Assembly: GCA_037893245.1 (NCBI GenBank)
Contig: JBAIAA010000102.1
Span: forward strand, 124,001-188,000
Source of the DNA: Crossaster papposus
Taxonomy: Eukaryota; Echinodermata; Asteroidea; Velatida; Solasteridae
Length of the DNA: 64,000 nt
Direction of reading: 5' to 3'
The notes below the pieces were generated by a model. The model saw only the letters and a list, made by a program, of their open reading frames with translations. It made no database searches and was not told the DNA's origin. The number at the start of each line of letters is the position of its first letter. The stretch's first letter is position 1. Shown here piece after piece: positions 13,822-45,322 of this stretch. The position numbers and the translations under genes were made by a program.

Positions 13822-15353
13822 ATGAGGATATGTTCCGTTACAAACTGCGGCAACAGTACCTATCAAATTGAAAAATGGAAAGGAGGTCAGTGTACAAAGC
13901 ATGGATGCCATTTTGGATTCGGAACATGTGATTGTGACCCTCCATTCCATCTTCACCCATTTCCAACTGAGAAACGTGATGCAGACACCAGGCGTCGTTG
14001 GCACAAGCTGATCAACAGGACAAATTCCAAAACAAACACGAACTGGGTTGCAAAATCCTACGATCGTGTATGCTCAAGACACTTTCCTGATGGCAGACCA
14101 ACAAAAGAACATCCGGACCCTTGTTTGCATCTTGGCTATAGTTCAAGTTCAGCCACTGCTAAACCGATTACTCCAAGACGACCCCCTACCAAAAGACAAT
14201 TAAACCCTAGAGAACTAAAAAGGAGAAAAATAACGGAAACTACCGATGTCCAGATAGAACATCAGGCAGAAGACAAATACACATACAGGTGCAACTGCCA
14301 ACCAAATTGGGAATGCCCTGGATGTGAAAGTAAAGAAGGAAAAATAAGAAGTCTTGAAAAAAGAGTCCAAGATCTTGAACATGAAGTTGTTGCTTTGAAA
14401 GTAAGGTTGCTGAAGAAGCCTAAAGCTAAGAAACAGTACATCTTCTCTTCCACGGTCTTACAAACTGATACTGATGTTAACTATTGCACCGGAATCGAGT
14501 CTAAGGAATCTATGGATGCTTTGTTCAAATATGTTGAACCACATGCAAAGAAATTGAGTTACTGGGATGGCACAAAAAGAGCAACAAAGGGACACAAAAA
14601 ACGGAACTACAAGAGCACTCCAGCAAAGTCGGGACCAAAACGTAAACTGCCTTTGAAAGACGAGTTTGTCATGGTTTTGATGCGGTTGCGATTGGACTTG
14701 AGTCTGCATTTTCTTGCAATATTGTTTGGAGTGGGCGAAAGTACGTGCTCACGAGTCATCGTTACTTGGATCAGATTCATGGCAGGAGTATTGAAGCCTC
14801 TCATCGTGTGGCCAGATAGAGGAACCATCACTCGGAACCTACCAAGAGAATTCAAAACCTCAGGTGCATCATTGATTGCACTGAGTTTTTTATTGAAAGA
14901 CCAAGATCTCTAGCATTGCAAGCTGTAACATGGTCAGATTATAAAAAACACAATACCATCAAAGTGCTTGTAGGCATTACTCCAACAGGGACAATATCAT
15001 TTTTGTCCAAGGCATATGGAGGCAGAGTACCCGACGTTTTCATAACACGAAAGAGCGACCTTCTCCGTCTAATTGACCCTGGTGACGTACTGATGGCAGA
15101 TAGGATTCCCAATCCAAGAAGACCTACATTGTAATGTTTCACCAAGCCACTCAAGAAATTCAACCACTAAATGACACGCGACAAAGTCAGGAAAACCACA
15201 AATCTGCGCATTCATGTTGAACGTGCCATTGTTAGGCTGAAAATCTCAAAGTATTGAATGGCACTTTGCCTATTACTCTTGTATCTTCAGCCGATGATAT
15301 AATTACAGTCTGTGCTGCTCTTGCAAATCTCCAACCAGACCTCATTATGTAAA
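13822..15353 (+). pseudogene. Decayed THAP-domain DDE_4-type transposase
   Basis: The first frame (363 codons from ATG 13822) begins with a THAP zinc finger: MRICSVTNCGN (first CxxxxC pair), RRRWHKLINR, and VCSRHF, the C-x2-H half. A coiled coil (about residues 170-195) and the helix-turn-helix LHFLAILFGVGESTCSRVI follow. The reading then jumps frame near 14868 to IIDCTEFFIERP (first catalytic Asp) and continues through HNTIKVLVGITPTG to VLMADR (second Asp, about 15100). It jumps again to LRIHVERAIVRLK (third, Glu) and once more to LNGTLPITLV and ANLQPDLIM before the stop at about 15353. At least three frame breaks make it non-functional. THAP plus DDE_4 is the architecture of the IS4EU/ISL2EU-type eukaryotic transposons. 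That assignment is from family knowledge, not a search. Confidence 0.85.
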
Positions 15354-17381: not shown

Positions 17382-18984
17382 GTTAGTGTTCTTGGTGGTA
17401 AAGTCTTGAGGCAGAACCTTACTTTTGACAGCTCCTGTCAGATATGTTGGTCGAGCAAGAAGTCTGCGGGCAAGGGCTGGGGATGTATGCAGTTTGTCTG
17501 TGAATATATGATGGTAGATGTCCAAGTGGTGTTTGGCCACTTGCATGGCAATGTCTACCATCTTTGTCGGCTTGGGTCCAGTGGGTTGCATTGATGATGG
17601 CACCAGTTGCTGATTCGGCCAGGGCGTAGATCTTGAAGTTAGCTCGATTTGGCTTCATTGGCATGAAGAACTTACGCACACTGGCCTTGAATCCTCTATA
17701 GCGGATCATTGCTTCATCAATGGCCAGCTCACAACAAGGACGGTATTTTTTTGGACATCTTTTTAGGACCTTTATCCCACAGGGGCTGAAAGGACGTTTT
17801 CTTTTAGCCAGGTAGCATTTCCCCTTGTCTCTGAGGTCAAGATCCTTGGCCGGATCCTTGCAAGCTAGGTGCTGTATGAGGGTGTCAAATCTGTTTCGAC
17901 TCGTGGTTGATGACACCAGATGGTTTCTGAGACCGGGTTGTGAAGACCAGTAGCCCTTGTAGTTGGCAATCTTCACCAGCCCCATCAAGATGTGGATGCC
18001 AAACCATGCCCGTATTTCTTGAAGAGTTGTCTGTTTGATATGGTTGACAACCAGGTTCCTGTTGGTCCACTTCACTATGCTAATGAAGTAGGCCAGTGGG
18101 AAAAACTTCAGAAAGTAGCCGATGGCCTCATCTTTTTTTTTGAATGTTGGGCCTGAGGGTCCAGCCGTGCTCGTCTGGGGTGTGGTCTGGTTGGTAGGCA
18201 GATGGGGGGTCCGGGTCACCGTCGGAGCTGGCAGGCAAGTATTTCTTTGTCTTCTTCTGTTTCTTTCTTTTCTTGGCTCGTTTTGGTGGTGGAGGGGTGG
18301 CATCGCTCTGCTCAGTGGCCGGATGGCCGGAATGGCCGGGTCATTGTCGGAGCTGGAAGGCAGGTTTTTCTTTGTATCCTGCTTTTTCCCTTCCTGGCCC
18401 TTTTTGGTGGTGGAGGGGTGGCATCACTCTTCTCTGTGGCCAAACTAGAGAGTCCGCTTCCCATGCTACCCAACTTTCTTTTTTTGCTTTTTGGGGGCTT
18501 TTTAGATTTACGTGGAGGTGAGGTGGCACCACTGTCATCCTTCTCCTCCTTTGTGGGCAGACTATCGGTGCTCTCCATTACCTATTCATCAGATGCCAAA
18601 CAGGGTGGTGAACTTTCTACTGCTTTGTCGAGGAATTCTTCTTCTTTACTGTCGGAGGTGTCTACGAGAGCCCTGTAACTCCTTCCCATCCGTATCCCGG
18701 CCTCTTAGGGCTGCCCTAAGCTCCTCAATTTTATGTTGCAGTTGAAGAGCAGTGAAACTAGCATCACTTCTTTTCTGTTGAGGCACTTTACTCTTTCCTT
18801 TCCCCTGGTTTTTCCCTCGAGCCTTCTTTCCTTTAGGACTACCATTCTTTACAGCAGCAACTCCCGAACTCTCTCCACGATCACGGTTTTTTTTCTTTGA
18901 CGTGCCCATAACTTTCTCAAAGAAAGTCTCTCGCTCCTGACTTGTTAAACTTTGTTGCAAATTTTGCATTTCCCTTGTAGTCAT
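17382..18984 (-). pseudogene. Decayed piggyBac transposase, split by a later insertion
   Basis: Minus-strand pieces from ATG 18984: a Lys-rich, Ser-rich N-terminal region (SKKKNRDRGESSG, then SDSKEEEFLDKAVESS in a shifted frame, then KKPPKSKKRK) leads into the transposase core. The core has EAIGYFLKFFPLAYF, EIRAWFGIHILMGLVK, and CELAIDEAMIRYRGF with the first catalytic Asp at about 17715. FMPMKP and FKIYALAESATGAIINA follow. A frame shift near 17590 leads to VDIAMQVAKHHLDIYHHIFT and DKLHTSPALARRLLA, with the second Asp in TDKLHTS. The frame reaches 17382, where the 15916-17374 element interrupts it. The C-terminal part with the third Asp is missing. No TTAA-bounded ends were found for this copy. 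Confidence 0.85.
18216..18450. repeat. Tandem duplication inside the piggyBac relic
   Basis: Two imperfect copies offset by about 120 bases, beginning GTCACCGTCGGAGCTGGCAG and GTCATTGTCGGAGCTGGAAG and both ending in TGGTGGTGGAGGGGTGGCAT. It duplicates part of the low-complexity N-terminal region. Confidence 0.7.
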
Positions 18985-21845: not shown

Positions 21846-22364
21846 TTATTGGTGTATAAAAGGCGAGTGTTATGAATAGAAGACTTGCTCAAAAACATTG
21901 TGATACCTTAGTCCACTTATCCGAATCAATCGGACATAACAATTTGACCCCCCATTCGCCAGATTTCCTTGAAGTCCGCGCACACGATCCAACATCAAAC
22001 CACTGTCTAGATACAAAGATTTTGTAGTTTGAAACATGACATTAACTCTAAATCTGTCATGCAACTTTCCACAAAAAAAAGCAAACACAGTTCAGTTCAT
22101 GAAAAAGCAGGTTTACATGTTTAGTAATCAAGTTTAAAGTTTTGTGTTAAAGTTTATTTGACTTTCATAGTTACAGACATGCATACTTAACTGTAATGAG
22201 CTGTTAACTCATAATGATAATTTACGTTTGCACATCCAGTCTTTAACTGAAACAGTTGATTTGTTTAACTTTATAAAAGGGAAACGTCTTGGATATGTAT
22301 AGCGCCCTCTTGAGATTGTATATAATTGTGTTATTAAAGGGTGCAAGAAATGTGTTTTGTATTA

Positions 22365-22860
22365 TAGTAGGGTCATATTCTTAGATTCCGTGACCATTTT
22401 GCTCCTACCTTTTTTTTATGATTGATTTCACTAACTGAACCATTTTAGAACAAAATGAGCTTCTATGTACTTTTCGTATGTGACGGCTAACTTCGCTAGA
22501 GCGCAATATTCAAAATGGCCGCCGACGCCATTTTGAAAAACATAAATTTCGATATCTCAGGTTCTAGATTAGACAGCAGTACAAACAAGGGGTCCTTTTC
22601 CACTAATTTTAACACTGCCAACACAATGAAATGGTTAGTTTTTAGTTTGGGGGTCATTCTGAGCTCGAAATCCAAGATGGCTGCCGTCTGCCATCTTGAA
22701 AACATAAAATTCAATATGTTAGGTTCTAGATTAGACAGCAGTACAAATGAGGGGTCTTTTCCCACTAATGTCAGCATTACAAACACAATGAAATGGTTAG
22801 TTTTTAGTTTGGGGGTCATTCTGAGTTCGAATTCAAGATGGCTGCCGTCTGCCATCTTGA
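22365..22860. repeat. Left TIR of the 5.9-kb transposon
   Basis: About 496 bp, the inverse of 27775-28269 with few differences. Its inner two thirds is itself a tandem duplication with a 161-base period (TTCTAGATTAGACAGCAGTA at 22562 and 22723). Three short palindromes of the form AAGATGGC...GCCATCTT (or AAAATGGC...GCCATTTT) sit at about 22511, 22673 and 22834. Confidence 0.9.
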
Positions 22861-23107
22861 AAACATAAAATTCAATATTTCATGTTTCAGAATACTAGTA
22901 GATGGAATTTTAGCATAATGATCCCATTATCATGTTTTTTTATCGTGTCAGGTGGAGCTGTCATTTCAAAGCTAAAGGTCACAAAGATTCGACATTGACG
23001 GAGACAAGTAGTGTGCTCTCAGCTGTTGAAAACAGACTGTGGTGTTCTTTTAAAAACTGTGTGTACGCGAGGAGTCCTGTGGTGTGATAGGACAATGTGA
23101 TGCCATA

Positions 23108-26100
23108 ATGTCAGAAAGGATGAATGCTGGGGCCAACGGAACTAGTGTCAGTACTGGTCCTCCTAGTCTGAAAGGGAAAACAGGAAACGAATACGAATGC
23201 ATATTGCTCTGTGGTAAGCCATGTGCTGGTGAAAATGGCTTGGACAAAATCACAGTGGATAAGTGGAAATCCATCCAGAATAAGGCCATGAAATGGAAGG
23301 GACTTGATATGTTTGGGAATGTGCACTGCTCTGTGGATTGGGAGAAGGGGCCAACTGGGTGTCACATGCATAGCTCTTGTTACACATCACTTTCCAGCCA
23401 GCGCCTGCTCTTGCAGGCAGAGAAACGCCAACAAAAAGCTCAGCAGCAGGACAGCGCCGAGGTCGCAAGTCATAGTAGCCCCGCTTTAGATGCAAGCACA
23501 CCAAAAAGGCTCCGGTCCAGCACAGGACAACTTCACGATAAGAGTTGTTGTGTATGGTGCCTGAAAGAGGCTCATCATAAGAGCCGCGCTCGCGATAAAG
23601 AACTAAACCTGCTATCAACAGTACATGCATGGAATAGATTCAAGCTACATACTGTACGTCTGGAAGATGAAGTGTTGAGAAGGAGACTTTGCATTCTCAT
23701 AGACTCTATCCCGGACCCCCATACGGCTTTTGGGATAGAAATACGTTATCATCGTGTGTGCTGGCGCAAGTACGTTAGTGATCATAAGCCACTTACAGAC
23801 GAAACTGCACAACATCTTCAGCGGGTGAACCTCCGTGAAGCTCAGACTATTTTTTTCGAACATGTCCGTCAAGTCGTCTTCCATGACCACGAATTTCGAA
23901 CATTACAAGGGCTCCTGAAGGACTACCAGCGGATCATTTGCAACTATGGACATGATTCAGTAGTCAGGTCAAGCTACTTGAAGGAGCTCCTTATCAAGGA
24001 ATTTGGCGAAACTATAGGATTCCATGATCGACATCAGAAGAATGTGAGTGAATTGGTCTACGACACTTCTGCAGGAGGCACATACGTTGAGGCTGCAACC
24101 ACTTCTTTGGGTATCAGCAACGATCAGTTGACTCGGAACATTGCAGCACGGCTTAATGCGCATGTACGCAGCTCAAATACTGTGCCTTGGCCGCCATACA
24201 TTCATGAATTAGAGAAAGAAGAAGACCTGAGCGAGCTCCTGTTGAAGCTAGTTACTTGGATGAGGCGCCCTAACATGTCCTCCATCGACGACAGTCCATC
24301 CGTTCGTTCGATTGCATCTATTCTCACAAGCTACATTACCGGAAAACGCACTGCATTCAAGACAAATCTCTCTGTCATGCTGCATGGACTGGCAAAGAGC
24401 AGGGAGATAGTCGACATAATGCACAGAGATGGTTTGGGCATCAGCTACAATGACGTCATGATGCTACGCGATTTCTGGGTAGTTAATGATCTGAATCGCT
24501 CATTGAATTGTCCATTTGAGCTTGCCGAGGAAAAGCCTGCCGTCGCTATAGTTGACAATGATGACTTTAAGAGTGACACATTGACCGGCGCCGGTCAGCC
24601 ACACCGCACAAATGTGATGTTTGTACAGCCAGAATCCTTCGACTCAGAACCTTCTTCTCAGAATGATGAAGATCGTCCACGTCCTAGTACTAGACTGGCT
24701 ACATCCCTCTCAACTTCACTCAAGGAACTTGGAAGCGAAATACAGAAGGTCAACCCGTACAAGACAGTGAAACGTGGAGAGCCGCCCATCAGGAATCGGC
24801 CTGAAAATCAGAGTGCTCCTCTTGACACGACTGCTCAGAGGACACGTGGCGTCATCCATGCATTGGCGAGGGCTAAAGAAGATCGAACAAGACCCAAGTC
24901 AGAAGGACAGCCCCTGCCTGGGTTTTCTGGGTTTCATGCCAACATGTCCAAATCAGACGAGAAGAGTCGAGCAATATACCACATGACCTACCCCGATCCA
25001 CCCAGTAAGACGATTGTTTATGATGTGATGTGTAAACTCGCAAAAGCAATCGATGAAAAAAAGATGCCCTTCGCAATCATCGTTGGTGATCATCCAGTCT
25101 ATGTGCTTATGCTCGAATTAAAAAGTGAGAATTCCACCCTGTTCAGCAAGATCTTACCTTTTATGGGACCCTTCCATATCCAAATGTCGTTCATCTACGC
25201 CATCTACAAGAGATTCAAGGGTTCCGGTATATCAGATGTGCTGGTGGCAGCAGGCGTCATCGCGGACGGGTCTGTGGATCAAGCACTTCGTGGAAAGCAC
25301 TTCAAACGTGGGGTACGTGGTCTGCGGTTATTCTATGAGACGCTAATGTATCATGTTCTGGACAAGCGTTTGGAGGGCACCCCTCTATCAGAGGAAGTCA
25401 AGGCGTCCCTCGCCAAGCTCAGAGTGCAGAACGATTTACAGGAACTTGCAGAAGCATATAGCGAGCTAGAAAGCAATGCTAATCTGAAGTATATCGTTGA
25501 CACTCTATTCAAGGATTACGTTGACTCCCCACAAGCAGAATACTGGATGTCCTTCATGGAGATGGTGGAGGTTCTGACTCAGAATATCCATGCAACGAGA
25601 ACAAGGAGCTGGACCGAGTTCAAGTCCTCACTCAGGCTTATGCTTCCTTGGATGCAAGTCTATGACAACAACAGGTATGGTCGGTATCTTCCCGATTTCA
25701 TCACAGTGTTGGACACTCTTCCCGAGGACCAGGCTGCATTTATGGCGAATGGTCTATTTGCACAGTCGATGACTGGCAAGCCGTACTCTAGCGTCGCCCT
25801 TGACATGTGGATTGAGACAACAATGAATAAGGGTTCCAAGCTGAAGTCTGGTTGGTTGGCCATTCTCTTCAACGAAAAACAGCTCCTTTCCAATACTCGC
25901 AACGTCAATAACGTCAATCGGATAAGGGCAAGCGTCCATCGCCACGCTAATTGCAAGAAACAAGCTGCAGTGAAGCATACTGATTGTGCAAAGAGTAAAA
26001 TGAAGAAGGACGAGCAAGCCATCCAGGATTTGAGCGCCTGTCTCACTGAGTTCAAGTGCGATCCATTTGACCATGATAACGACCAGGAACTTCGTTCCCT

Positions 26101-27733
26101 GCAGTCAGGAATCCCGGCTTCGGACGTGCTAGCTTCTGACTTTAAATCGGCAAAGGAGGATGGCACAACCAAGGTTGAGGAATTCCTGAAAGAGAGGGTG
26201 TATTCCAAAACCAAGTCTCTCAACGACCGTGTCCCTCTTAACAAGCGTCAGAACTTTACAACTCAAGAACTGAAGAAAGCGGATGGTGAGGGCCTGAAGG
26301 GGAAGACTGAAGAAATGGAGTCTAAAGCCATGGCGTCAGTTCTTGGACTGGTCGAAAAAAGTGGTGCCCTCAAACTTGAAGAGGTACTCCAGCATCGTCT
26401 GACTGGCGAGTGCCTTTCTATATTCAATGCCAATGGAACCATGCGGAAGGTACAGAAAAGCAAACTTCAGGAGAAGCTTACTATGACCCCGATTCCAGAA
26501 CCAGATGTGTATACGTCTATTGTAGATATGGGTCTAATCTGGCGTAGAGCTGCTCCAACCACTGAAGACAGAGAGAAGGGTGACGGTACAAAGTACACAT
26601 GGGGGGATTATGCAGAGAAGCTTGTGCACGTAATTCTGACAAGACACAAGCATGCAGAGCGCATAATTTGTCTGAACGATCCCTATGATCAAACCTACAC
26701 AATAAAGGACAGTGAGCGAATGCTGCGGCAGAAAGGCAAGCCGATCAGGAATGTCTATATGAAGTCGGATGACAAATTTCCCTCGAACAAAGACTTCCAT
26801 GCTCTCCTTGGTAATTCTGGCAACAAGATACGCCTGCAGGCATTTCTTCAAACTAAATTCACAAGTGCTGCAGCCTCAACCAATATTAAGATTATCTACT
26901 GTGTCGTAGGCAGCAGTGCGGTGAATCTCACTTCCGGCCAGCTTGTGCCAGAGTTCAAATGCTACCATGCGGAGGCTGATACGGCCATGTTCACGGTTTA
27001 TAGTGTACTCCGGTCAAAGGGCTACACAGCAGCAGTCATTCTTGACACTGAGGACACAGACAATTACGTACAAGCTGCCTATGTTGCTCAGCATGTATCA
27101 GGGCTCCTGTGCCTGAAACGGAAACACCAACTGATCACTGCCCGATGCTTGTGCAGTGAGGAAATGGCTGCATCCATCATACAACTGCACGTGCTCACTG
27201 GAAGTGATCACAACTCTGGTTTCTACGGAGCAAGCAAGAAGCTCATCACAGAACGTCTTCAGAGTTCCGAAGAGGCGCATGGCTTGCTGGCAACATGTGG
27301 CAGCCAACTCCCAGTCCCCCAAGAGGTCATCGATGATTTGGAGCGATTCGTCATTCGATACGTCTATTGTGATAACAAAAATGCCACCCTAGGAGATGTG
27401 AGGGCAGCGAAGTGGAAGGCGCAGAAAAAGAAAAGCACCATCCGACTCGCACCCGACTCGGACAGTCTCCGCCATCACTTGGAGCGTGCAAACTACCTCA
27501 CATATTTGCAGAAGCATTTCGACCTCCAAAGTCACCCATCACCGATCGGCCATGGATGGCATCTTGTAGATGGACTTTGTCTCCCCATCCGTTCCACCCG
27601 GCCTGCAATCCCCCCATTCATCAATCTGCCTATCAACCCACAGGCAGAGGAAGAAAGCGACAGTGAGGATTGCAGCGGAAGTGATGACAGTGATTCTAAC
27701 AGCACGGACTTATGCAGCGACAGTGACACTTAA
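23108..27733 (+). CDS. Transposon protein, 1,541 aa: Cys/His fingers plus XPG/FEN-like nuclease
   Basis: One open frame of 1,541 codons from ATG 23108 (A at -3). The frame stays open to 23084, but no earlier ATG lies in it. The N-terminus has two related Cys/His clusters: ECILLCGKPC (C31, C35, C39) with CHMHSSCY (C85-C91), and SCCVWC (C147-C151) with YHRVCWRKY (H215, C218). The middle (about 630-760) contains VGDHPVYVLMLELK, MGPFHIQMSFIYAIYKRFKG and DVLVAAGVIADGSVD, a conserved-looking core that may hold the transposase active site. The C-terminus resembles an XPG/FEN nuclease. The N-part is DMGLIWR (D1140), IICLNDPYDQ (D1191) and IKDSERMLR. The I-part is YHAEADTA (E1289, D1291) and ILDTEDTDNY (D1316, D1318). 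A helix-2-turn-helix-like LTGSDHNSGFYGASKK follows at 1365. The tail is acidic (EEESDSEDCSGSDDSD). It would act in the nucleus on DNA during transposition. It is clearly coding; the Academ label is less certain. Confidence 0.85.
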   Translation: MSERMNAGANGTSVSTGPPSLKGKTGNEYECILLCGKPCAGENGLDKITVDKWKSIQNKAMKWKGLDMFGNVHCSVDWEKGPTGCHMHSSCYTSLSSQRLLLQAEKRQQKAQQQDSAEVASHSSPALDASTPKRLRSSTGQLHDKSCCVWCLKEAHHKSRARDKELNLLSTVHAWNRFKLHTVRLEDEVLRRRLCILIDSIPDPHTAFGIEIRYHRVCWRKYVSDHKPLTDETAQHLQRVNLREAQTIFFEHVRQVVFHDHEFRTLQGLLKDYQRIICNYGHDSVVRSSYLKELLIKEFGETIGFHDRHQKNVSELVYDTSAGGTYVEAATTSLGISNDQLTRNIAARLNAHVRSSNTVPWPPYIHELEKEEDLSELLLKLVTWMRRPNMSSIDDSPSVRSIASILTSYITGKRTAFKTNLSVMLHGLAKSREIVDIMHRDGLGISYNDVMMLRDFWVVNDLNRSLNCPFELAEEKPAVAIVDNDDFKSDTLTGAGQPHRTNVMFVQPESFDSEPSSQNDEDRPRPSTRLATSLSTSLKELGSEIQKVNPYKTVKRGEPPIRNRPENQSAPLDTTAQRTRGVIHALARAKEDRTRPKSEGQPLPGFSGFHANMSKSDEKSRAIYHMTYPDPPSKTIVYDVMCKLAKAIDEKKMPFAIIVGDHPVYVLMLELKSENSTLFSKILPFMGPFHIQMSFIYAIYKRFKGSGISDVLVAAGVIADGSVDQALRGKHFKRGVRGLRLFYETLMYHVLDKRLEGTPLSEEVKASLAKLRVQNDLQELAEAYSELESNANLKYIVDTLFKDYVDSPQAEYWMSFMEMVEVLTQNIHATRTRSWTEFKSSLRLMLPWMQVYDNNRYGRYLPDFITVLDTLPEDQAAFMANGLFAQSMTGKPYSSVALDMWIETTMNKGSKLKSGWLAILFNEKQLLSNTRNVNNVNRIRASVHRHANCKKQAAVKHTDCAKSKMKKDEQAIQDLSACLTEFKCDPFDHDNDQELRSLQSGIPASDVLASDFKSAKEDGTTKVEEFLKERVYSKTKSLNDRVPLNKRQNFTTQELKKADGEGLKGKTEEMESKAMASVLGLVEKSGALKLEEVLQHRLTGECLSIFNANGTMRKVQKSKLQEKLTMTPIPEPDVYTSIVDMGLIWRRAAPTTEDREKGDGTKYTWGDYAEKLVHVILTRHKHAERIICLNDPYDQTYTIKDSERMLRQKGKPIRNVYMKSDDKFPSNKDFHALLGNSGNKIRLQAFLQTKFTSAAASTNIKIIYCVVGSSAVNLTSGQLVPEFKCYHAEADTAMFTVYSVLRSKGYTAAVILDTEDTDNYVQAAYVAQHVSGLLCLKRKHQLITARCLCSEEMAASIIQLHVLTGSDHNSGFYGASKKLITERLQSSEEAHGLLATCGSQLPVPQEVIDDLERFVIRYVYCDNKNATLGDVRAAKWKAQKKKSTIRLAPDSDSLRHHLERANYLTYLQKHFDLQSHPSPIGHGWHLVDGLCLPIRSTRPAIPPFINLPINPQAEEESDSEDCSGSDDSDSNSTDLCSDSDT

Positions 27734-27774
27734 TATGCGTATAAGAAACTTTGGGGCTTGGAATGTTATTATCC

Positions 27775-28269
27775 TCAAGATGGCAGACGGCAGCCATCTT
27801 GAATTCGAACTCAGAATGACCCCAAACTAAAAACTAACCATTTCATTGTGTTTGTAATGCTAAAATTAGTGGGAAAAGACCCCTCATTTGTACTGCTGTC
27901 TAATCTAGAACCTAACATATTGAATTTTATGATTTCAAGATGGCAGACGGCAGCCATATTGGATTTCGAGCTCAGAATGACCTCCAAACTAAAAACTAAC
28001 CATTTCATTGTGTTGGTAGTGTTAAAATTAGTGGAAAAGGACCCCTTGTTTGTACTGCTGTCTAATCTAGAACCTGAGATATCGAAATTTATGTTTTTCA
28101 AAATGGCGTCGGCGGCCATTTTGAATATTGCGCTCTAGCGAAGTTAGCCGTCACATACGAAAAGTACATAGAAGCTCATTTTGTTCTAAAATGGTTCAGT
28201 TAGTGAAATCAATCATAAAAAAAAGGTAGGAGCAAAATGGTCACGGAATCTAAGAATATGACCCTACTA
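27775..28269. repeat. Right TIR of the 5.9-kb transposon
   Basis: About 495 bp, inverted relative to 22365-22860 and with the same internal 161-base duplication. It begins 41 bases after the stop codon, so the 3' untranslated region and transcript end must lie within it. Confidence 0.9.
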
Positions 28270-28272
28270 TTA

Positions 28273-29716
28273 GTTTAAATGAAAGATTATAACTAATTGA
28301 GTGATTTTCAGTTCATAAAAGTTTTATTTTTTGGTAATTAATATGAGAAAAATAATAATAAAGTGCCTTGGGGGACCGGACCGGCCCCGCCCCTAGAAAG
28401 GTAGCTTATTAACATGTAAAATTTGCATAATTGTGACGTACGTTTGGGAAGACTTCGACGTCGCGACCAGCGTGCCTGTGCATGTGCCACGCGTATCGAT
28501 GCAAAATCATTCAGTCGATGGTGGACTCAAGTTATTGTCAAAAGAATTGTCAAGTGGAATATCTTCTTCAGTTGTGGGAGCTGATGATACTGCGGATATT
28601 GTGTCAGATTCTGCGCTCCCCGGCTTCGAACTGTCGTCTTCACTCGCCATGTCTGAACAAAATCTGCTGCGTGCGTACCCACGTGCATGGCATCTCTTTT
28701 GGAGGGTTGCCGAATGTTCGTCACGAACAGCGCCACCATTTGAACATGTTAATGAGGGGGCCAATTACATTTACGGTGATTAACCCCAATTAATGTAATT
28801 TTATCACCCCTGGTCTTGTTACTTACACACCAAGGCACATTTTAAATTATTAAACAGCAATTCTCCTCGAAAGGTCTGCGTAGAACCTTTAACAGTTCTA
28901 GAACACACAAAAGAAATTGAGAATCCTGTCTTTTCATTACGCAATTTTTGTTTTAAATAATAGATTTATGTGTATTAAATGTGAATAAAAATTATCGATA
29001 GTCAGTACGCGACGTCTAGGTACGAGACGTGGCCATGTAGGCACATTGTTGTGTGTGGATGCACCCACAGTGTACGAATTGCGTATACGCTTTGTGCACG
29101 GTAATCAAATTTCACATGGACGATCATGAAAGTTCTTCCTCGGTTTTTGGTGAATACGACGAAAACAGTACTGGTTTGTATTCGAATCGCAGTATTTCTT
29201 ATTCAGACACGGACTCGAGCGAGGATAAAGATGTGGTCCCTCTAGGTGAAAGCATGTTCGCTGTAGAGGGCTGAAATCACTAGGCCCGCCTGGACCACTT
29301 CGCTCTGGTATTGATAAGCTTTACTTTGTCTGACCAAATCCTCCGATACTTAGGATCAGCCGGAAACAAATGAAGGCTTACTCCATCCTTAGTAGTTTTG
29401 CTGCAGCTACACACCTAGTCGGCATGACCGAAAACTGTTGACTTTTTACCCTGATTTAGAATGAAAAACCATGTAAAGACGGACACTTGTTGCAATGCGT
29501 GCAGCCAGTATACGATAGCAGCGCAGCAAGTTTTTGCCTCGATTTTCGTCATACCCCTCGCAAAGTTTTATGTTAATGAGGCTTCCCTTCGAGGGGCGGA
29601 GTGGTTTGAATTATTTTTCCCCCATTTATCACAGAAAATAAACACAAACACATAATGTTGTTGTCCACATTATACTTCATTGATTTAAGCACAAAAAAAA
29701 ATTATTACTTGTTTCC
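28273..29716. other. Intergenic between the transposon and NRDE2
   Basis: No gene is called. Two Ser/Asp-rich frames, MASEDDSSKPGSAESD on the minus strand near 28640 and MDDHESSSSVFGEYDE on the plus strand at 29116-29274, are too short and featureless to assign. Confidence 0.35.
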
Positions 29717-30077: not shown

Positions 30078-33000
30078 CTGCCAGGAAAGTGTAGAAACAG
30101 AATAAACGAGGATATACGCCTGTTTCCAACACAACAGCAACACACAACAGTGTGTGAATCTAGGGAATACAAGGGGTGATTGATCAGTTCATGGCCTAAG
30201 GTAGGAGGAGTCAGTTTTAGTAAATCAAACATTTATTTTTTAATTATAGTCCTCTTCTACATTAGCACACTTAGTCCAGCAGTCATTTAGCATACGGATG
30301 TACATGTAGAAGACAGGACTTCATCTTGGGCACCCGGTAGCAATGATGTCATCATCTGAGACAAATGGTGCCCACCCAGCTCCTCTTTCAACTTCGGACA
30401 ATAGGTGTTTGACCAGTTCGAATACACATTTCTGGATGGCAGCCATGGCCACTATGGACATGTGTGCCACAGTGCATCTGGTGGATAAGTACCCCTCTTG
30501 CTACCCTTCCATGTGTCCACAGCTGTTCAAGGAGATCAGCATAGTAGGCCCAGTGATAGTGTGACCCTTTTAAAAACCCTATGCGTAATCATTCAACAAG
30601 TTGAACTGCAAACAAATTCAGTGAAAACTGCATAGCTCATCTCCTCTTACCTAATTAGGCCACAAACTTATCAATCACCCCTTGTATAACTCTCACTTTT
30701 TGATCAAGGGCTCATCCCCTTTTTTTAACGAAACAAAAACAGGCGTCAAAGATTTAAACCAAGGTTGTGGAGAACTGAAGAGCAGCAACAACTTCTAAAT
30801 ATGATAGTTAAACCAACAAATAGAAACTGGCAGAAGCCAGACATAAATGTGCTATGAATAGGCATCAAGTGGCGGCTTCAGCAGTTTTTTACAAGATGCA
30901 TAGCCATCTTTGTCCCAACAGACTTGAAGGCCATGCTCACTCAGCCCTATGAGATACGGCGCGCAACACGCTTCAGTTTGTCGATGCCGAGACACACACT
31001 CGCTGAGCCAGTCTCTAGGACTTTTTCCACAGGCAGAACTTTCATCCACACTGCAGTCCGTTATAAAATAGACTCCCAGATTGTGTAGTCGGAGAAGACA
31101 GTGGTGGTCTAAGTGTTTAAACCAAGGTTGTGGAGAACTGAAGAGCAGCAGAAACTGGCAGAAACTGACATAAATGTGCTATGGATAGGCGTCAAGTGGC
31201 GGCTTCAGCAGTTTTTTACAAGATGCATAGCAATCTTTGTCCCAACACACTTGAAGGCCATGCTCCTGCAGCCCTATGAGATACGGCACGCATCTCGTTT
31301 CAGTTTGTCGATGCCGAGACACGCACTCGCTGAGCCAGTCTCTAGGACTTATTCCACAGGCAGAACTTTTATCCACACTGCAGTCCATTATAAAACAGAC
31401 TCCCAGATTGTGTAGTCGGAGAAGTCAGTTGTGGTCTCTCCTTCAAAAGGAAGGTGCATCAACACCTTCTGTCAACATATTGATGTGTTGCTAGCTCTTT
31501 CTTCCTCTAAACTGCTGTGAACCACTGAATGGCACATGGAGACTTCAATTATGGCCTTGTTGACTATATCTGTACATGACCACGGTCATACTCCATTGGG
31601 TATTGTTCACTTTAGCATTTTATACAAATTATTAAAACAAAATCGCTAACCTTATCCCACAATTATACAATGACACAATTGTACCCTGGTTAAAGTAAAA
31701 TGAAGTTTGCAGGCCCATTAAAAATTATTTGCTCAACAATTGCACCAGAAAATAATGTTATTCTTTTTAATTAGTGGTACATATGTATGAAATACCAACC
31801 TTAGCCCATGGGCAGTGTTGCAATGCGCTGTAGAAAATAGACTCCGCTCGCTTCAAGTTGCCTTGCTGGACCTGGCATGATGAACATAAAGAACACAAAA
31901 ACCCAAAAATTTATAACATTTTCTCTCGTCATTGATTTGCAGGGGAAAATATATCACATAAGTATGCAATTTATAAAGCACAAGTTGACAAATACTAGGT
32001 TTTTGTTCTCATTACCTCAAAGTGCATGTACATTCTCCACAGCAGGACACAGTGACAGGAACATCGACTCTCACATGCCCTGTCAAACAAGGAACGGATA
32101 CGGTTGCTGATCCCAGTCTCCGGCAATGACACTAACAAGAAACGGGAGGGAAGAAACGGGAGAATTAATGACAAATACCAATCAGACTTGGTTTATGCAC
32201 AAAATGTGCAAATGAGAGAGAGTGACTCATGGAAGTTGTGGTTATTAACAGTTAGCTCTGTGGTATTTGATATTTGCATATAACAGTAGCAAAAGGCCAG
32301 GCAAGTTGTTGTGGTTGTTGACAACTGGGGCCAATTTCTTAAAACGTGTAAGCACCAAAATGTACTTAGCATGAACATTCTTCCTTTAAAAATAACAGGG
32401 TTACAAACCAAATTTTTAGTTGATGTTTATTGTTTTTGACTGGTATTCAGCTGGATTTTGTTTCAAGTGAAAGGCATGTGGAGTTTTGGCCGAAAATCTG
32501 TTTTTACTGAGCAAAACTTGTTTGTGCTAAGCGCATTTCTGTGCTTACATATTTCATGAAATTGACGCCTGGTGGTGGCAGAGGCTAGCTGTCTGACACC
32601 TCTTAATCATTTACAGAATGGCTGTATTACGTTTCAGACATTTCCAGGCCAAAGTGGGCCAATGTTCTGAACCTGATTATAAAACCGTTCACACACCGTA
32701 CTAAAAAGATAAAACGGTCAGAGTTTTAGCTAGATCCCTCCCTCCGAGGTGTTTTAAATCACTGTTTTAGCGGCGAGATAAAACCAATTCTGTTGAAACT
32801 AAAACCATTTACACACTGTTTTAGCTAAAACTTTTAACCAAATCGAGTTCAACTAGTGTTTTGAGCGAATTTAAAACGGTGTGTGACGCACCCTTTGTCA
32901 GACATTTCGAGGTTTGGAATAAAATGTAATCAGTAATTAGGAAGCTTACATTTTAGACATTTAATGTCTGAAACGTAAGTCTATTGTTCCTGTTTCAGAT

Positions 33001-36000
33001 ATTTTGACACTAACAAAAGCGTTTCCTGGTTCATAGTGGAAGTTACCTTGCTGTGGTGACATTGGTTTCATGTACACGAGCAAGGTTTGACAGAATGGCG
33101 ATGTGCTTGTATACTATGGGCCTTTTCGAATCCCTGGCTTCGTATCTGTCATTGGCTTAACCCCAACTGCCTAACCCTAACTGCGGGTACTGGACCAAAT
33201 CTGCCGAAATGCACCAGTAATTATTTTTTTTAAATATGGGCTAAATGGAGCCACCACTAAAGTGTTGGTTGATGTTGGTGGACATGCATGTAATACCAAT
33301 ACATGTATATGACAACAACACTACTGGATCCCAGGCAAAATTCATCAATTGCACCGGCACTGCTTCAGGCTTCTTGGACCAAGTCCATTATAATCCTTCA
33401 CTATTACTGGCGGATAATAAGATGATTTAGGTTCCAAATTGCGATAACTCCCGCCAGTCTGATGCCTGTAGTGCTTCAGAACCTTTCAATCGGTTAATAT
33501 GAACCTAAAAGTTCAAATATTTCAATTTGCTTCAATTTCGGATTTTCCTTCAGTGATTCGTAAATCGGAAGCCGAAGACGAAGTAAAGGTTAAAAAAATT
33601 ATGGCTCATGCAATATGAACAAATACATTTAACTTTAATGTTGCAATGGACTACATGTACCGGATTTTAAGGATTTGAATACAAATGTGATGCGATCAAG
33701 CAAAATCAGTCTGAAGTACGCCCTGGTTGTTTTTTTGATTTTTACATATTCTTTTGTAGCGTACTTCAGGCTCCATTTCAGTGAAAACCCCAAGTGAATA
33801 CGACCTTTGGTTAAAAAATTACAACCATTTGAACACCAGCACGTTAAAAATAAAGGAACTGAGAAAATCAAGTTTTTGTATCACTTCCCTTCTGAATTTT
33901 GGTTAAAAGAGTATTTTAATGCAAAAGAAAAATATTTTCCCCTTCTGTTTTTGTAAAAAAGTAAATTTGGATTTGTCAACCCCTCCGAACATATTTTGAC
34001 CCCATCTCAAAACAAAAATTGCCGAGTTCCGACTGAGTTTGCTTGATCGCATCACAATCGTTTCGGAAATGATATAACATATAAGTCTAACCCTGGCCAT
34101 ATCTGCAACTGTATATAATCCCAATTTTGCATTCGCTGTGATGCTCCAAGTACATGTACATGCAATAGTGACTGGCCTCTGCTTCTTGGCCCTGCAAAAT
34201 CCTCAAAACCTAATGAGGAATTTTGACGGGTACAGTTTTGTGTACCGGTATACACTACATGTACAATGTACTATACTACTAATATGCCCGAGTAGTAAGA
34301 GTGCAGTTTACTACAACAATGCACTAGTATTTTGCAGCTTTAGTTGAGGTATAGGGTTAATACATTTAACAAACAGAACATTTGAGAATTGCTTCAAACT
34401 ATTGTAGTCATACCTTCAATCTCTTGTGCTGGTAAGCCCTTGATTTCTACAGCAGTAGTAGCATTAAGTACAGCTTCCTGCCTAAGCAGCTCTGCCCTGA
34501 TAGCAAACAACCACAGAAGGGGACAGTCGCTTTGTCTTGTCACCTGATCAAAATACCGACGGACTCGTCCGGCAATGTGAGACTTGGTTTCCGAGTGGAT
34601 GAAAGCATCCAGTAGCTCTGGGCTGAAGGGGTAATCTACCAGGGAGGTCTTGATTAGGTTTCTCAGAGCCCCCAGTGGGCCGGGGTTTCCGTACGCATGG
34701 GCGAAGAAGAATCCGACGTGAGCTGTTGTCAGTAACTCCTGGTCAACTCGGACGTGCCGAGGCCTATTCGAGTTGGAGCTTCTTGATCCACTTCTTTTGA
34801 GGGCTGAGAGACTGGACTCGAAGACAACCGATGCTGCCTGCATGCCCACGGTCAGGTACTGAAAGGTGGCAAAGCACTTGGTGAGATGTACGATGGGACT
34901 TCCTGAAGGCTGGCACAACTTTGCGAGTTTAGCGTCTGGGCTTTCATCACTCTTCTTCGAGTAAGAGGCCAAGGCTTGCGTCGTCATCTCTTGATAGTTT
35001 CTCCTAGCCTTCAGGATTCTCGTTGCAGACACACATTGTCCCGGTACCTCTTGGAGAGGAGTGAACACTCCCTCTTCTGCAATAGTAGTCAGTAAATGCA
35101 GCACCTCTGTGTTGCTTCCATTAAGAGCTCCAACAGAACTTGCAGGTGTCGAGTCATACTGGACAAACATGTCTGTGAATGCCCACACGAGTTTTGTGGC
35201 AGCATGCCTGTCTGCTTTGGTCTTTGGCTGCCCAAGAAAGATCAGGGCTGTTTGCAGCACACGTTTGGCTTCATCTACATTCATCAGCGAGTATTCCCAT
35301 CTTGCTAAGGCAGCCCAGAGATCCAAGTTGTTGCGATTCTCCTCCTGGCTAAGTAGTTTCTTGGCAAACCTTTTGGCATCCTTGAGTCGCTTTTTCTGTC
35401 CACGCTTATCATCTGACGACATTAGAGCTCTTTGCATGTGGAAGTCTAACCTCATCAGTAAGAACTTGGTCTGTGCTGGCGCAGGGAAAACTGGTATGAT
35501 TTGGTCGAAGACTTCCTCAGCAAAGTCTTCAAGAGGTTTATTCTCTGTGTTATTATCTCCGACACAAACTCTGTTAGTGCAGTCCACATTACTTGCAAAC
35601 TGCTCCAAGGTCCTACAATTACCTGCCACTCCTGAGAGAGTCAAATTTGACTTACAGACTGGAGGAAATATTTGGCTTGGCTGCTCTAAGTACATGTACA
35701 TCCCCGTCCTTTTGGCAACATCATCATCAGGAGACTCCAACAAACATCCAGGAACCCGAACGCCGAGGAACTCAAGAAAAAAGAGAACGAGACGAAACCG
35801 ATTTTGCTGAGAACTCAGCCTGAAGAGAGCATGACTGACGTCGTCGAAGAGAACCATTCGCTCCGGATCCTCGCAGTCATCTTCTGTCTCTCCCTTGTCT
35901 TCGTCAGGCCGCCAGGGGGCAAAGTGAATCTGCTCTCTAAAGACCTCTTCCCGCCTCCAAGCCTTCCACAGGGGTTGGTCGGGTGAAATCGTGGCAGGGT

Positions 36001-39000
36001 TTGAAGATTCCTCCGGAGCCTCGTCAGATTCTGAGAAAAAAAACCAAAATTAATTTACTAAATACACACAGAAAGAATCAAGTATATCAGTGTTCCTGTA
36101 ACTTCAAACTTTCTAAATTCTGGACCAGGTTTTCTTTACGCTTTCATATTCCAACAATTTCAACCATTTTCTTTCACTGACAGATTGGTACAAAACACTT
36201 CAGAAATGAAGGCCAGTATAAGTTATTCAAACTTAAGAAAAAAAAGAGATCCATAATAGTTAAAAGCTATTTGCGAGTTCCATTTGAATAACATGTGGTA
36301 CACTGACTTGCTCAAAACGTTTGGCACATTTAAACTTTGAATTCTCCAGACCAAAGAGACTGTTATTATATCAAGTGATTAGGGGCAAGCCTTATGCTAG
36401 CAACCCCAAGCTCCGGAATGGTCTGGTGTCTTTAATTTGTGCCATTCTCACCCATTATGAATAATGTATTGGTGCTGAGCATTGAGCTTGCCCCGAATCA
36501 CGTAATACAGTAAGTCTCTTTGTTCTGGAGAATTTAAAGTTAAATTGTGTCGAGCATTTTGAGCAAGTCAGTGTTCCAGATGTTATTCAAATTTAACTTT
36601 TATTCCAATTTAAATTTAAGTTTTGCCCGACCCCTACTTTGTTTGAAGATTTCACTTTGAATAATTAGCCCCACCTAAAGGAACATTCTAGCTAAAGGGA
36701 GACGCATGTTTACAAAAGGGTAAAAACTTACGTTGTTCTTGGATTTGTGCCCATCCCCCTTTCTCCTTCTTTTGCATCCAACTGGCCCAACCATGGGCTC
36801 CTCTCTCGCCGAATCGAGGCTCAGCGCTATCCCAGAACGTCTCCAAAAATGCAATCTTAAAAGTCAAGAATTTGTACAACCAGGTGAGGATTTGTTATGT
36901 GTGGATCTCATGAAATTAGTTTCAGGGGCAATTATCAATTCTGACTTTTGCACTTTGGTCGGAAGCGCATACATGCGAGGCGTTCTGGCAAAATGAGTAC
37001 AGGCAATAGTAGAGAAAAATGCAAAAAAACACAAAAAACTAAATGATGGTGATTTGGGTTTTTTTCAGATTTGTTTATGTTTAATTGAAATCTTTTAAGC
37101 TTACTACGCATGTTAAAGATACAGTATTAAAATTGTAAAATAAAAGTGTTTTTTGACATATCAATAAATACCAACAGCAAGAAATTGTTAACATAATATC
37201 TGATTCAAGAACAACGAACAGTATTGTATTCAGAATCTTATTCTCTCATTTTGACCTCTGCCAAGTTCCGACTTATCTTGCCAGAAAGCCTCGCATATTT
37301 GCTCTTCATTTTGATATGGGCTCCCTGCACAAGTACATGTACCTCCTCAACAGTAAGAAATTTAAAGGGGCAGTTGGGGGTCACAACTGAGAGCAACATT
37401 CAGACACAATGTACATGTAAGTTGCCCCTGCTATATGAGGTGTGGCCCTTCCTTTCAGCTCTCAAAAGTGTTTGCGTACAGAACCCATCTCAATATGATT
37501 CTTATTGATTTCAATAGTGCAAGGTTGTGTGAAAAGACCAATTACGAACATTTTGCTCTGGCAACAAGTCTTATTTTGTTGAGTTACATGTAGGTTGCAT
37601 ATTCAGGTTGTTTTTAACTCACCTGCATTGTAAATACTTCAATGTCAAAATTGTTTGTGCAAAAAGGAGAGCTCGGTCACTATTCATTTACCAGAAAAAG
37701 AACACAGACAAATTACCCTTGGATTCAATACGGTATACACGATGTGCCCTCTGTTTACATCTGTATTCGAATGTGCCCGGCAGTATGCGCACGCATCATG
37801 TTTAACCTAAATTTGGTTAAGAGATGACATCAGAGTTCAAATAATTCAAAGGCGATCTGACCTGCGTCGTCACTATTTCTGCAAATTTTATGTAAAACAC
37901 GATATTTGCGCATACTGCCGGGCACATTTGAATACAGATGTAAACACGTGACGTCAGAGGGTACATCGTCTATAGTTCAGAAGTGTATGTAGATAATGAA
38001 GAAAACTATTACCTGGCCCTCCACATGTATGTGGGTGTCGTGCTGGAATTGCAATGGACAAAAGCAATTGAGCTCTATCATGGCCTGGTAGGCTGCCACC
38101 GCTTTCTCTGTGTGACCGGCCTGCCGCCAGAAATGACACAGGCTAACAAACAAATCTGCAGCGATAAAACAGGTAAATATGCATGGCATCAGTACGTTAT
38201 ATTTACCTCTAACTTAAAGGTAGAATACACCATTGGTAATTGCTTAAATTATCCAGAATGAGTGGATTCATATTTTATAGTCAATATTGTTTAACTGACC
38301 TGTCCGAAATTTTACAATCATGGACGCCGTGGAAAAAGAAAGAAAAAAGACGTTCGTTTTCTAACCGGCGTCAGACAGTTCTTGTTTTTCTTGTGGTTTT
38401 TCTTCGCGATCGCCTTCTGGCGATAGGAATTGTTAAAAATAAAATTCAATTTTTCGGAACAGTTATAGAATATTTAGCGCAATCATTTTGCTGGATGCCT
38501 AGAATCATTATTTACTTTTAAATTTAAGTAAGATAATTCTTAATAATTTGGTAGAAACATTTGTCGATATCTGCAAATGGTGTATCCTACATTTACCTTA
38601 AAAAACAAACCTGAAACCATGCAAATGGCAGGAAGACTACAATACACCATTACCGTAATTTCCTGCGGTAAAGCCGCACGGCGGTTAAGGCGCAGGTCCC
38701 TAAAATCACCCAAAAAATTTCAAACGTCAACAGATAAAGCGCACCGCCGAATAAAGCGCATGCTTGAACGCACCCAAAAGAACACCAGACGCCACCCGGT
38801 GTAGGTACATCGCCACAAAGGGGTCATTTTGTTGCCTTAGAACGATCCCACTATTCCAAGCAAGAATTTGCTGAGTACTTGAGTTTATCTTGCACGCAAA
38901 CAATGTATGAAAACTTCAAACCAGTAGTCACAATATCGCACGAGGTTTATACATATCATGATGTATCACTGCAGTATAAACTGCATGCATGTACATGCAC

Positions 39001-42000
39001 ATGTACATCACATGCAGCGATCGCGTGCTGGGTATCCCTAATTGCGACACCCCCTAGTCTTTTTTCCAGTCGTTGCGAATGCTCCGCGCTGTGTATATAT
39101 AGTTCGGATGGTGAATTGCATGAAGCCGGAACGTAGATGAAAAAAACGTTTAGAAAAAGGCCACATAGTACAGGCCAGCTTTTTATCGCTGTTGTAATTG
39201 TACGCGTCATGCAGCGCACGCTGTAGTCTTGTTTGCAAGACGATCTTAATCGCGGTATATGCAGCGCGCGTAGGCCGCCGATGCGGCGTACGTTAGAGGG
39301 CGCCCCGCATCGCGAAGATCGTCTTGCAAACATCACATGTATGTACATGTATAAACGTACATGTACGGTCGTAGGGGATCAACACATCGCGGCATTGTTA
39401 ATGGAAACACGGTCACAATGTCCGGAGAGTTGAGCTAATTGGTTGATCGCATTATTGAGTAAGATTGCGGCGTTCAAAGAATTCTTCACACAAAGACCAT
39501 CACTTTGAACTCAAGCGACATCATATACGGCGCACCGAAAGATAAGGCGCGGCGATGTTTTTGTGGTCTAGAAAGTCAGATAAGCCGCGTCTTTACCGCA
39601 GGAAATTACGGTAAATGGATTATCAGAGTGTTGAGATTTTAGATAAAATTTGTTAACATTTAGAAACTATTCCTTCACACATGTACCGGTACATGTGCTG
39701 CTACTGAATAAAATGTTTGCCACACAGGCAGTTAAAAATCCCGTTTAATAATTTCTCACCAAGTAATTGATTTTCCGTGTCAATGGCATCACATCCATCC
39801 AACTCCTGCTGCTTAGCGACTAACCTACCAAAACACTTCCCGTACAGTCCTGCCACTTTGGAAACGGAGAATGCAAAGAAGCACGCCTGCTTGAAGAGGA
39901 GGTATTCCCTCCACAAAGGGATGTTGTCTGGGTTCGATTTCAGGAGCTTTTCCCATTGTCTTGTCTGCTCCGACGTGTCCCAGAATTCCTTACCGATTTC
40001 TAGCTGCTCCAGTTGCAAGAGGACACTGTCTGGATTTTTCAGAAGGGCCTTCTCGAGAATGGCAAGCTTCTTCTCGGCAATCATCTTAGCTGTCCTCTTT
40101 CGGCTGCTCTGCTTTGTGTTGAAATCAGTGCTGTCGCTGGTAGCAATCGGTGCGTCAAAACCGACAGTGTCTTGGAAGCGGACGAACTCCAGCCACTTGG
40201 GAATGTCGTGGGGATTGTCGTGCAAGTGCCGGTTGTAAGACGCTGTGGTCTTTGCGAACCCCGAGGAGCTACCGCTGGTTGGTGCCGATTGGCGATGGGG
40301 TTTCGCAGGATTAGTGCGACTGGGATTGGGATCTGATCCGAGGTATGCTTGAGTGGATGGATCGTAGACACTTAGAGGATCAAAGTCCGGCCTAGGCAAG
40401 CTGGCCGGAGCATCTATCGGGATGTAAGAAATGGTCCTCTGCACCGCTTGCGTCCTTTCTTGAGATTTATCTGCCTGACTGAGGCCTGCACGTACGTTAC
40501 TTTCTTCCACATTTTCACTCTCTACTTGGACAAAATTTGCAGTGAAGTATCTCGGTGGATTCGATTCGGTCCTGTGTTTCTTCTTGGATTTTGATGCATT
40601 TTTCCAAGTCACCGACTGACGTCGTGGGTCCAAACCCAGACAGGAGTACCCAACGCGACGGTAGGCGACGGTGTTGGTAAAATGAAGTCTGTCAAAGCAC
40701 AGATTGTTCCTGTCCGATTTGACATCGATACAGAAGCCCTCACCAACATTGGTGGTCCTTCTGTTTGAGAAATTCAGAAAGAGAAAATTTTTGTAATTTG
40801 TCTAACCTCCACCCCCCCCCCCCCCCCCCCCCCCCTCCCCAGAACTCGAACCCACAACCTGTAACTGCATTCACTTACTAGTGGTTTCTTTAGCCTGCCT
40901 AGCTATTTGACTTTATCAGAGTTTCCATTCATTTTTCTTTTGGCTATTTTACAGCTCTGGGGTGTTTTTGTAAAGACCCAGTCGTCACTAAATTATGAGA
41001 ACTAAACACAGTCACTGAAAGAGCATTTTATGCGGCACCATCACTCATCAAGGTTTGTTGACAAACTTGATAAGATTGCGAGCTGGGTGAGAACTTTCTG
41101 TAAAATCAAATAATCGTTATATGGTTTGAAGAAAAACACACAAAAATAGAATAACCGGTTTTTGAAATTACCCATTTCTCTCAACACTACTCATCAGGCC
41201 AAACAAAATAAATGGTGTGTTTACGGTACAGCTTGAAAAAAATCCTGGTAGGTAGGTAGGGAAATATTTTTATTTTTTTCAGTTTTATTTCTTTTCTTAT
41301 TCATTTAAAGGTAGTATACACCATTGGTAATTTTTTGAATTATCAGGAATGGGTGGATTTAGGGGGTTGTATTTCATAGTAAATATCGTTTAACTGACCT
41401 GTCCGAAGTTTTACAATCATGGTTGTAAAACGACGTTCATTTTTAACCGGAGTCGGGCAGTTTTTCTTATGTTGTTGTTGTTTTTTCGCGATCGCCGTCT
41501 GGCGAGAATGAATTTTGGTTTATACAATTCAATTTTTTGGAACAATTACAGGATATCTAGTGCCCTCATTTTGCTGGATGCCTACAATCATTATTTACTT
41601 TCAAATAAGTAAGATATTTCTTAATAATTCGGTAGTAAATTTTTTCGATATCTGCAAATGGTGTATACTACCTTTAAGTCAAGTTTTCAGTGTGAAAAAT
41701 GATTATGTTTGTGACAAATAATTGAAACTTGTATTCATGTACAATTATCAACTAGAGAAACAGCAATAACAAGTTTGAGGTCGGAATGTGGCCGCCAAAA
41801 ATCCAGGTACGTCGGGTTTACCGTAAACGCCCCATTTTTCTCTTCTTTGACCTATACTTACTCATCTGATCTCGAGGAGTCTCTGTGAGTGTTGCTTTCA
41901 TCACCGGAGTAGCTTGAATCACGTTCCTTCCTCTTTCTCTTCTTGTGTTTCTTCTTCTTTTCCTTGTGATGTCTGTCGCGAGGGTGGCTTTTCCTCCTGC

Positions 42001-44512: not shown

Positions 44513-44766
44513 CTGAAGGGACTACGCAGATCGTGAATATTGACGTCAATATTGACGTCAATATTCGCGACTTTGAGGAAAGTCGTGAAATTTGACGCGA
44601 ATATCGACGTCAAATTTGACGTCAATATTCGCGACTTTTTGGGAAAGTCGTGAATATTGACGTCAAATTTGACGTCAATATTCGCGACTTTGAGGACAGT
44701 CGTGAAGTTTGTCGTGAATATTGACGTCAATATTCACGATCTGCGGAGTCCCTTCAGGGCCACCAT
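44513..44766. repeat. Palindromic element built of TGACGTCA octamers
   Basis: The ends TATGGTGGTCCTGAAGGGAC and its near inverse ending CCACCATA enclose an array in which AATATTGACGTCAA and AAATTTGACGTCAA alternate with (T)CGCGACTTT spacers. Six full TGACGTCA octamers and one CGACGTCA are present in about 200 bases. The whole can fold end to end. No coding value; translated frames simply repeat NIDVNI. Confidence 0.85.
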
Positions 44767-45248
44767 ACTACACAGATCACAAACACGAACCACGGACCAA
44801 TTACAGGCAAAATCAAACAATTAGGTTATGTTAAAAAGAGTCAGGGTAAAAGCTCCAGACAAACCGACAAACTAGGGTAGGCCTTTGGTAATAATTAAAT
44901 CAAAATTAATAAACAAATCGAAATAACAAATGCAAAAATAATAATAACAAATACAAACAAAAGAGATAGGGCAGGCGGGGGAATCGACCAATAAAACAAA
45001 CAGTACAGTATAAGAACAAAAGACAAGAATTAAAAGGCCAACCAAGAAAATTGCTTCACAAAATATTGTTGCTAAAAACAGAAATGTCAGTTGATGAACT
45101 TTTAAGGTTCGCATGGCGAAAAGGCAATAAGTAGTTAACATCGTGTAGTAATTCATTATAATGTGTATACAGAAAAAAACACAGATTACAAATTTAAATA
45201 GTGGTTTTGTTAAGTTCTCGCAATAATGCTAAGTGCACGAAGAAATCG
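44767..45248. other. Intergenic, AT-rich
   Basis: The minus-strand frame at 44872-45156 is hydrophobic but composed of AT-rich low-complexity codons. It is not called a gene. Confidence 0.35.
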
Positions 45249-45322
45249 GCAAGGCGGGACTTGAACCTGCGACCTTTGGAATACCGGACCGGCGCTCTAC
45301 CAACTGAGCTGTCTTGCCCTAT
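45249..45322 (-). repeat. tRNA-like sequence (SINE head or tRNA pseudogene)
   Basis: Minus strand: the acceptor-stem halves GGCAAG and CTTGCC pair. AGCTCAGTTGGTAGAGC forms a perfect D arm and A box. GGTTCAAGTCC is a perfect B box. The anticodon stem (CCGGT against TCCAA) does not pair, so it is a pseudogene or SINE. The adjoining 45335-45375 (GTCAGTATCTTAGTTCGAGG) recurs inverted at about 63376-63410. Confidence 0.6.

Follow-up and report, generated by a model that had tools for sequence, protein, structure and literature searches.

Structure of the element and its surroundings

An element of 5,905 bp occupies positions 22365-28269 of the 64-kb window (the whole stretch of DNA that was analysed) and comprises two long inverted arms, a presumed 5' leader and a single large gene. 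The left arm (22365-22860, plus strand) and the right arm (27775-28269, minus strand) are each about 495 bp long and share 98.6 % identity across 497 BLAST columns, a count that includes one chance-matching base beyond each end; a separate comparison returned an ungapped pair of 451 nt at 99 %. Ungapped alignment of the first 446 bases of the two arms contains six substitutions, every one at a position of at least 253, and the outermost 252 bp (22365-22616 and 28018-28269) are identical. Substitutions confined to the inward part could arise either through exchange between the repeats or through constraint acting on the outer half. The end sequence of the element is TAGTAGGG, and a search of the window with the 16-bp terminus, allowing up to 3 mismatches, gave two matches, both of which are the element ends.

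The trinucleotide TTA lies immediately outside both ends (22362-22364 and 28270-28272), as read directly and examined by an offset test in which the ends were moved by -6 to +6 bases. Among these 13 shifts a 3-bp repeat was present at shift 0 only, and three inward shifts gave 2-bp repeats (AT, TA and TA). In 20,000 draws of two random sites in the window, 1.7 % had the same 3-mer, so the TTA pair by itself is modest evidence, and together with the exact arm ends it constitutes good evidence for a 3-bp target-site duplication (TSD).

Both arms contain tandem subrepeats. The left array (22508-22886, plus strand) has a 162-bp period and 2.3 copies and overruns the arm by 26 bp, and the right array (27775-28123, minus strand) contains 2.2 copies of a unit of about 162 bp. 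Six palindromes built on the motif CAARATGGC are present, three per array; in five of the six, including all three on the left, both halves carry the motif, and the middle palindrome of the right array has it in one half only, the other being degenerate. A motif search placed CAARATGGC at 22511, 22527, 22673, 22690, 22834 and 22851 in the left array and at 27776, 27793, 27936, 28099 and 28115 in the right arm. These 11 motifs, which form one repeat family and are not independent events, are among 16 occurrences in the window and fall within 22365-22894 and 27775-28269, or approximately 1.6 % of its length. We take the motif to resemble the YY1 consensus, and the palindromes to be like opposed or paired YY1 sites. 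Two left-arm palindromes, folded as single-stranded DNA, gave better hairpins than almost all of their shuffles (3 of 200 and 0 of 200 folded equally well), and the extreme end of the element did not stand out in this way (27 of 200). These results suggest that the arm palindromes are candidate binding sites for a host factor or the transposase, or hairpin-forming sequence.

No second copy of the element DNA or of its protein was found within the 64-kb window. Other features of the window include an open frame with THAP and HTH_Tnp_4 Pfam matches (13822-14913, plus strand), which probably encodes a Harbinger-like transposon protein, and a piggyBac-type DDE_Tnp_1_7 fragment (17419-18303, minus strand), the start of which is overlapped by a tandem repeat of about 121 bp (18211-18441). 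A 327-bp unit is present in about two tandem copies at 30822-31437 with 93 % matches, and a further tandem array at 44532-44739 has a unit containing the palindrome GAATATTGACGTCAAATTTGACGTCAATATTC. Three minus-strand open frames are spread across 34394-42322, of which that at 39701-40633 matches NRDE-2; the frames at 34394-35857 and 41858-42322 (minus strand), which matched nothing in Pfam at E 0.001, possibly represent further exons of the gene containing the NRDE-2 frame. Taken together, the NRDE-2, THAP plus HTH_Tnp_4 and DDE_Tnp_1_7 matches indicate that the host is probably an animal. The single Rfam match in the window is tRNA-like (45247-45318, minus strand; 33.3 bits against a gathering score of 29) and may represent either a tRNA gene or a repeat derived from a tRNA.

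The encoded protein

The element carries one gene (23108-27733, plus strand), identified by translation and a Pfam match, which begins with the ATG at 23108, extends through codons ending at 27730 and terminates with TAA at 27731-27733, with no intron needed. The stretch between the left arm and this first ATG (22861-23107, plus strand) is presumed, from its position, to be the 5' leader. The probability of 1,541 consecutive non-stop codons in random sequence of the gene's composition is approximately 10^-35. The stop ends 41 bases short of the right arm, which starts at 27775, and the segment from the stop to the element's right end contains neither AATAAA nor ATTAAA; the nearest downstream AATAAA is at 28357, beyond the element. 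The preliminary description had proposed a terminal inverted repeat (TIR) transposon with an intact protein, citing two inverted arms of about 495 bp, TTA outside both ends, one uninterrupted frame of 1,541 codons and a stop 41 bases from the right arm; each of these particulars was borne out, and the arms, TTA flanks and open frame together support the proposal.

Two Cys/His clusters near the N-terminus, also noticed in the preliminary description, were recovered by motif listing and are probable zinc fingers. The first runs from C31-x3-C35 to H88-x2-C91 (23198-23380, plus strand) and the second from C148-x2-C151 to H215-x2-C218 (23549-23761, plus strand), so that residues 31-91 and 148-218 share the pattern C-x2/3-C ... 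H-x2-C. The Pfam search returned no finger match for either cluster.

The sole significant Pfam domain in the protein is DUF6589 (PF20231), which the preliminary description did not name. It matched residues ~670-906 (25118-25825, plus strand) with 31.9 bits and E 7.5e-8 when the whole protein was the query, and with 34.5 bits and E 1.2e-8 when the middle segment alone was used, against a curated cut-off of 27 bits. The motif GDHPVY (residue 660) lies just ahead of the DUF6589 stretch and GPFHIQM (687) lies inside it, and the upstream motif IVDNDDF (residue 481; 24548-24568, plus strand) is, from its position, a candidate for the first catalytic Asp of the transposase. The DUF6589 region is probably the DDD/E transposase core. 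The papers searched contained neither a mention of DUF6589 nor a link between it and Academ, and a single-sequence AlphaFold2 model made for the transposase core had a mean pLDDT of 38 and was not used.

The C-terminal part contains a region of XPG-like motifs (26525-27229, plus strand), recognised from the motifs themselves, a motif chain and a weak alignment to a FEN1/XPG profile. All of the motifs quoted in the preliminary description were found in the translation, namely DMGLIWR (residue 1140), IICLNDPYDQ (1186), IKDSERMLR (1199), YHAEADTA (1286), ILDTEDTD (1311) and LTGSDHNSGFYG (1363), and the order AEAD, TEDTD, LTGSD (residues 1288-1367) is canonical, as in FEN1/XPG. A regular expression for this chain ([AG]EA[DEQS], then [ST][DEQ]DxD, then LxGxD), which was defined post hoc from the sequence, matched the protein once, 0 of 100,000 whole-protein shuffles, and 3 of 3 FEN1/XPG segments tested out of the 7 used for the profile.

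Profile methods gave much lower signals. The preliminary description had named XPG_N, XPG_I and PIN as profiles for checking the nuclease, and no Pfam match to XPG/PIN families was obtained at a ceiling of E 10 with five inputs, three of them spanning the C-terminus (the whole protein and two C-terminal pieces), in searches where the HMMER filters drop most weak matches. A home-made profile of seven FEN1/XPG segments scored 4.5 bits against the C-terminal 456 residues, which is near noise; this total was reached by 0 of 500 shuffles of the C-terminal stretch, and the best-domain score of 2.4 bits was exceeded by at least 2 of 500. With the whole protein the score was 1.9 bits, below 7 of 500 shuffles, and hhalign against the FEN1/XPG profile gave a probability of 2.4 %. 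Under free placement, HMMER and hhalign both best-aligned LTGSDHNSGFYG on the GTDYN..GIKGIG (GxD helix-hairpin) segment of FEN1, and neither program aligned the AEAD and TEDTD parts to the profile. A single-sequence AlphaFold2 model for the XPG region had a mean pLDDT of 34 and was also left unused. The protein resembles the FEN1/XPG (Rad2-family) nucleases in the order of its acidic motifs and in the GxD helix-hairpin segment, but differs from them in going unrecognised by the Pfam XPG models. Of the nuclease claim, the motifs in canonical order stood and the expected family match did not appear; assignment of the C-terminus as an XPG-like nuclease is, on these motifs, likely but unproven.

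Searches for relatives were also made in sequence collections. Protein-seeded scans of IMG/VR and GTDB contigs yielded 3 and 23 stretches with short peptide patterns, respectively, none of which was a relative by tblastn, and a motif-pattern scan gave 0 in IMG/VR and 0 in GTDB contigs; these scans were seeded from a single sequence, so that distant relatives would escape them. Locus L001, which has a pattern like YHAEADTA, proved unrelated (best tblastn E 0.67), and DUF6589 was found in neither its record (0 of 1) nor the control genomes (0 of 14), a sample that is uninformative. Pattern searches for FEN1/XPG in viral contigs gave 0 in one scan and ten stretches (L002-L011) in another, and the latter were rejected as FEN1 since 0 of 10 frames were FEN1-like by eye: L004, L006 and L009 are the same 676-residue frame, the remainder include two other long frames and three short ones, and the frames of L005 and L008 end inside the pattern. 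The best PHROGs match had an E of 0.24, and sequence searches of the PDB with the whole protein (E 0.028) and with the C-terminal part (E 0.16) gave weak matches to unrelated names.

Classification and alternative explanations

We consider it quite likely that the element is an autonomous DNA transposon of the cut-and-paste type from the AcademX (nuclease) lineage of Academ, a superfamily defined by an XPG nuclease and fingers. The AcademX lineage of this superfamily is reportedly treated by Kapitonov and Jurka in 2010 and by Kojima in 2020. The 3-bp TSD, the size of 5.9 kb, the long TIRs, the single large protein and the nuclease-like C-terminus fit AcademX and not AcademH, and the Academ-like label of the preliminary description is kept as the best fit, with its XPG part standing at the level of motifs. 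A large protein with Cys/His clusters is a further Academ trait that the element shares. Kolobok elements, in which the duplication is TTAA, were rejected as a match to the TTA observed here.

In the available part of PMC10045372, TSDs are 3 or 4 bp in AcademX and 9 or 10 bp in AcademH, and the difference is tied to a nuclease and a helicase, respectively. The element, which was compared with AcademX by description, agrees with that lineage in a TSD within the 3-4 bp range, in inverted repeats and in a nuclease-like domain, but its XPG assignment is made from motifs only. AcademH presumably has the same transposase core, and DUF6589 may be the Pfam model of that core; this lineage was rejected, with its 9-10 bp TSD and helicase set against the 3 bp found here and a protein in which Pfam matched no helicase (PMC10045372, available part). 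Autonomous Academ elements of bivalves, also compared by description, are alike in having TIRs and TSDs, and the 100 curated consensus elements in the accessible section of PMC10294476 are on average 5,565 bp long, close to the 5,905 bp found here. Academ-1 appears as a table row in the portion available of the Mercenaria paper (PMC8905726), and Academ was not found in the portion available of PMC12730594. Judged by these features, the element is probably a new member of a known, Academ-type group of transposons.

The same observations bear on other explanations of the locus. The element might instead belong to a different or an unnamed superfamily of TIR transposons, with DUF6589 in its transposase and a transposon-specific C-terminus that is XPG-like in short motifs only. 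This explanation would be in keeping with the missing Pfam XPG/PIN match, the near-noise FEN1/XPG profile score and the literature search that linked DUF6589 to no Academ element, and 3-bp TSDs are made elsewhere too, for example by Zator (PMC10045372, available part); we regard it as unlikely, however, because the XPG-like motifs stand in the right order and register, and Academ is matched by the 3-bp TSD, by the size and by the presence of one large protein. There is a rather small chance that the copy, although of Academ type, is now inactive despite its open frame, which is compatible with the Academ assignment; the lack of AATAAA or ATTAAA downstream of the stop within the element would agree with this, whereas 1,541 open codons, an outcome far beyond chance expectation, and intact ends speak against it. 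High identity between the arms was rejected as proof of the recent move proposed in the preliminary description, as it does not date a cut-and-paste insertion, but with its long frame intact and its ends exact the copy is presumably not old. Host selection could also explain the long intact frame, as in a domesticated gene of transposon descent that is no longer a mobile copy. Such genes usually lose the inverted arms and the flanking repeat, and the retention here of the TTA flanks and of exact arms whose outer 252 bases are identical makes domestication extremely improbable.

Proposed mechanism and significance

If the element is an AcademX transposon, the parts of its protein suggest how it may move, and we infer DNA binding, catalytic roles, mobility and the identity of DUF6589 as the Academ transposase from them. 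Binding to the subrepeats within the long inverted arms probably falls to the N-terminal Cys/His clusters, and the middle DUF6589 region is probably an RNase-H-fold DDD/E transposase that would cut the ends and join them to the target. Joining at a 3-bp stagger would leave the TTA/TTA flanks, and the probable task of the C-terminal XPG-like domain is to trim or nick branched or flapped DNA in excision or end processing. A more specific and very doubtful version is that the arms are palindrome arrays bound by host YY1/Pho-type factors and able to extrude hairpins, and that the XPG-like domain, whose family cleaves branched DNA, processes those structures at the arms during transposition. If this were true, the accessory nuclease would be a structure-specific resolvase matched to the element's own ends.

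The element leaves the picture of transposon diversity unchanged, being a clean specimen and no new kind. Academ belongs to the less thoroughly studied transposon superfamilies of eukaryotes, and a copy whose ends are exact, whose duplication is 3 bp and whose protein is open over its full length would lend itself well to an activity assay. The analysis also suggests a testable label for DUF6589, as the transposase core of Academ-type elements.
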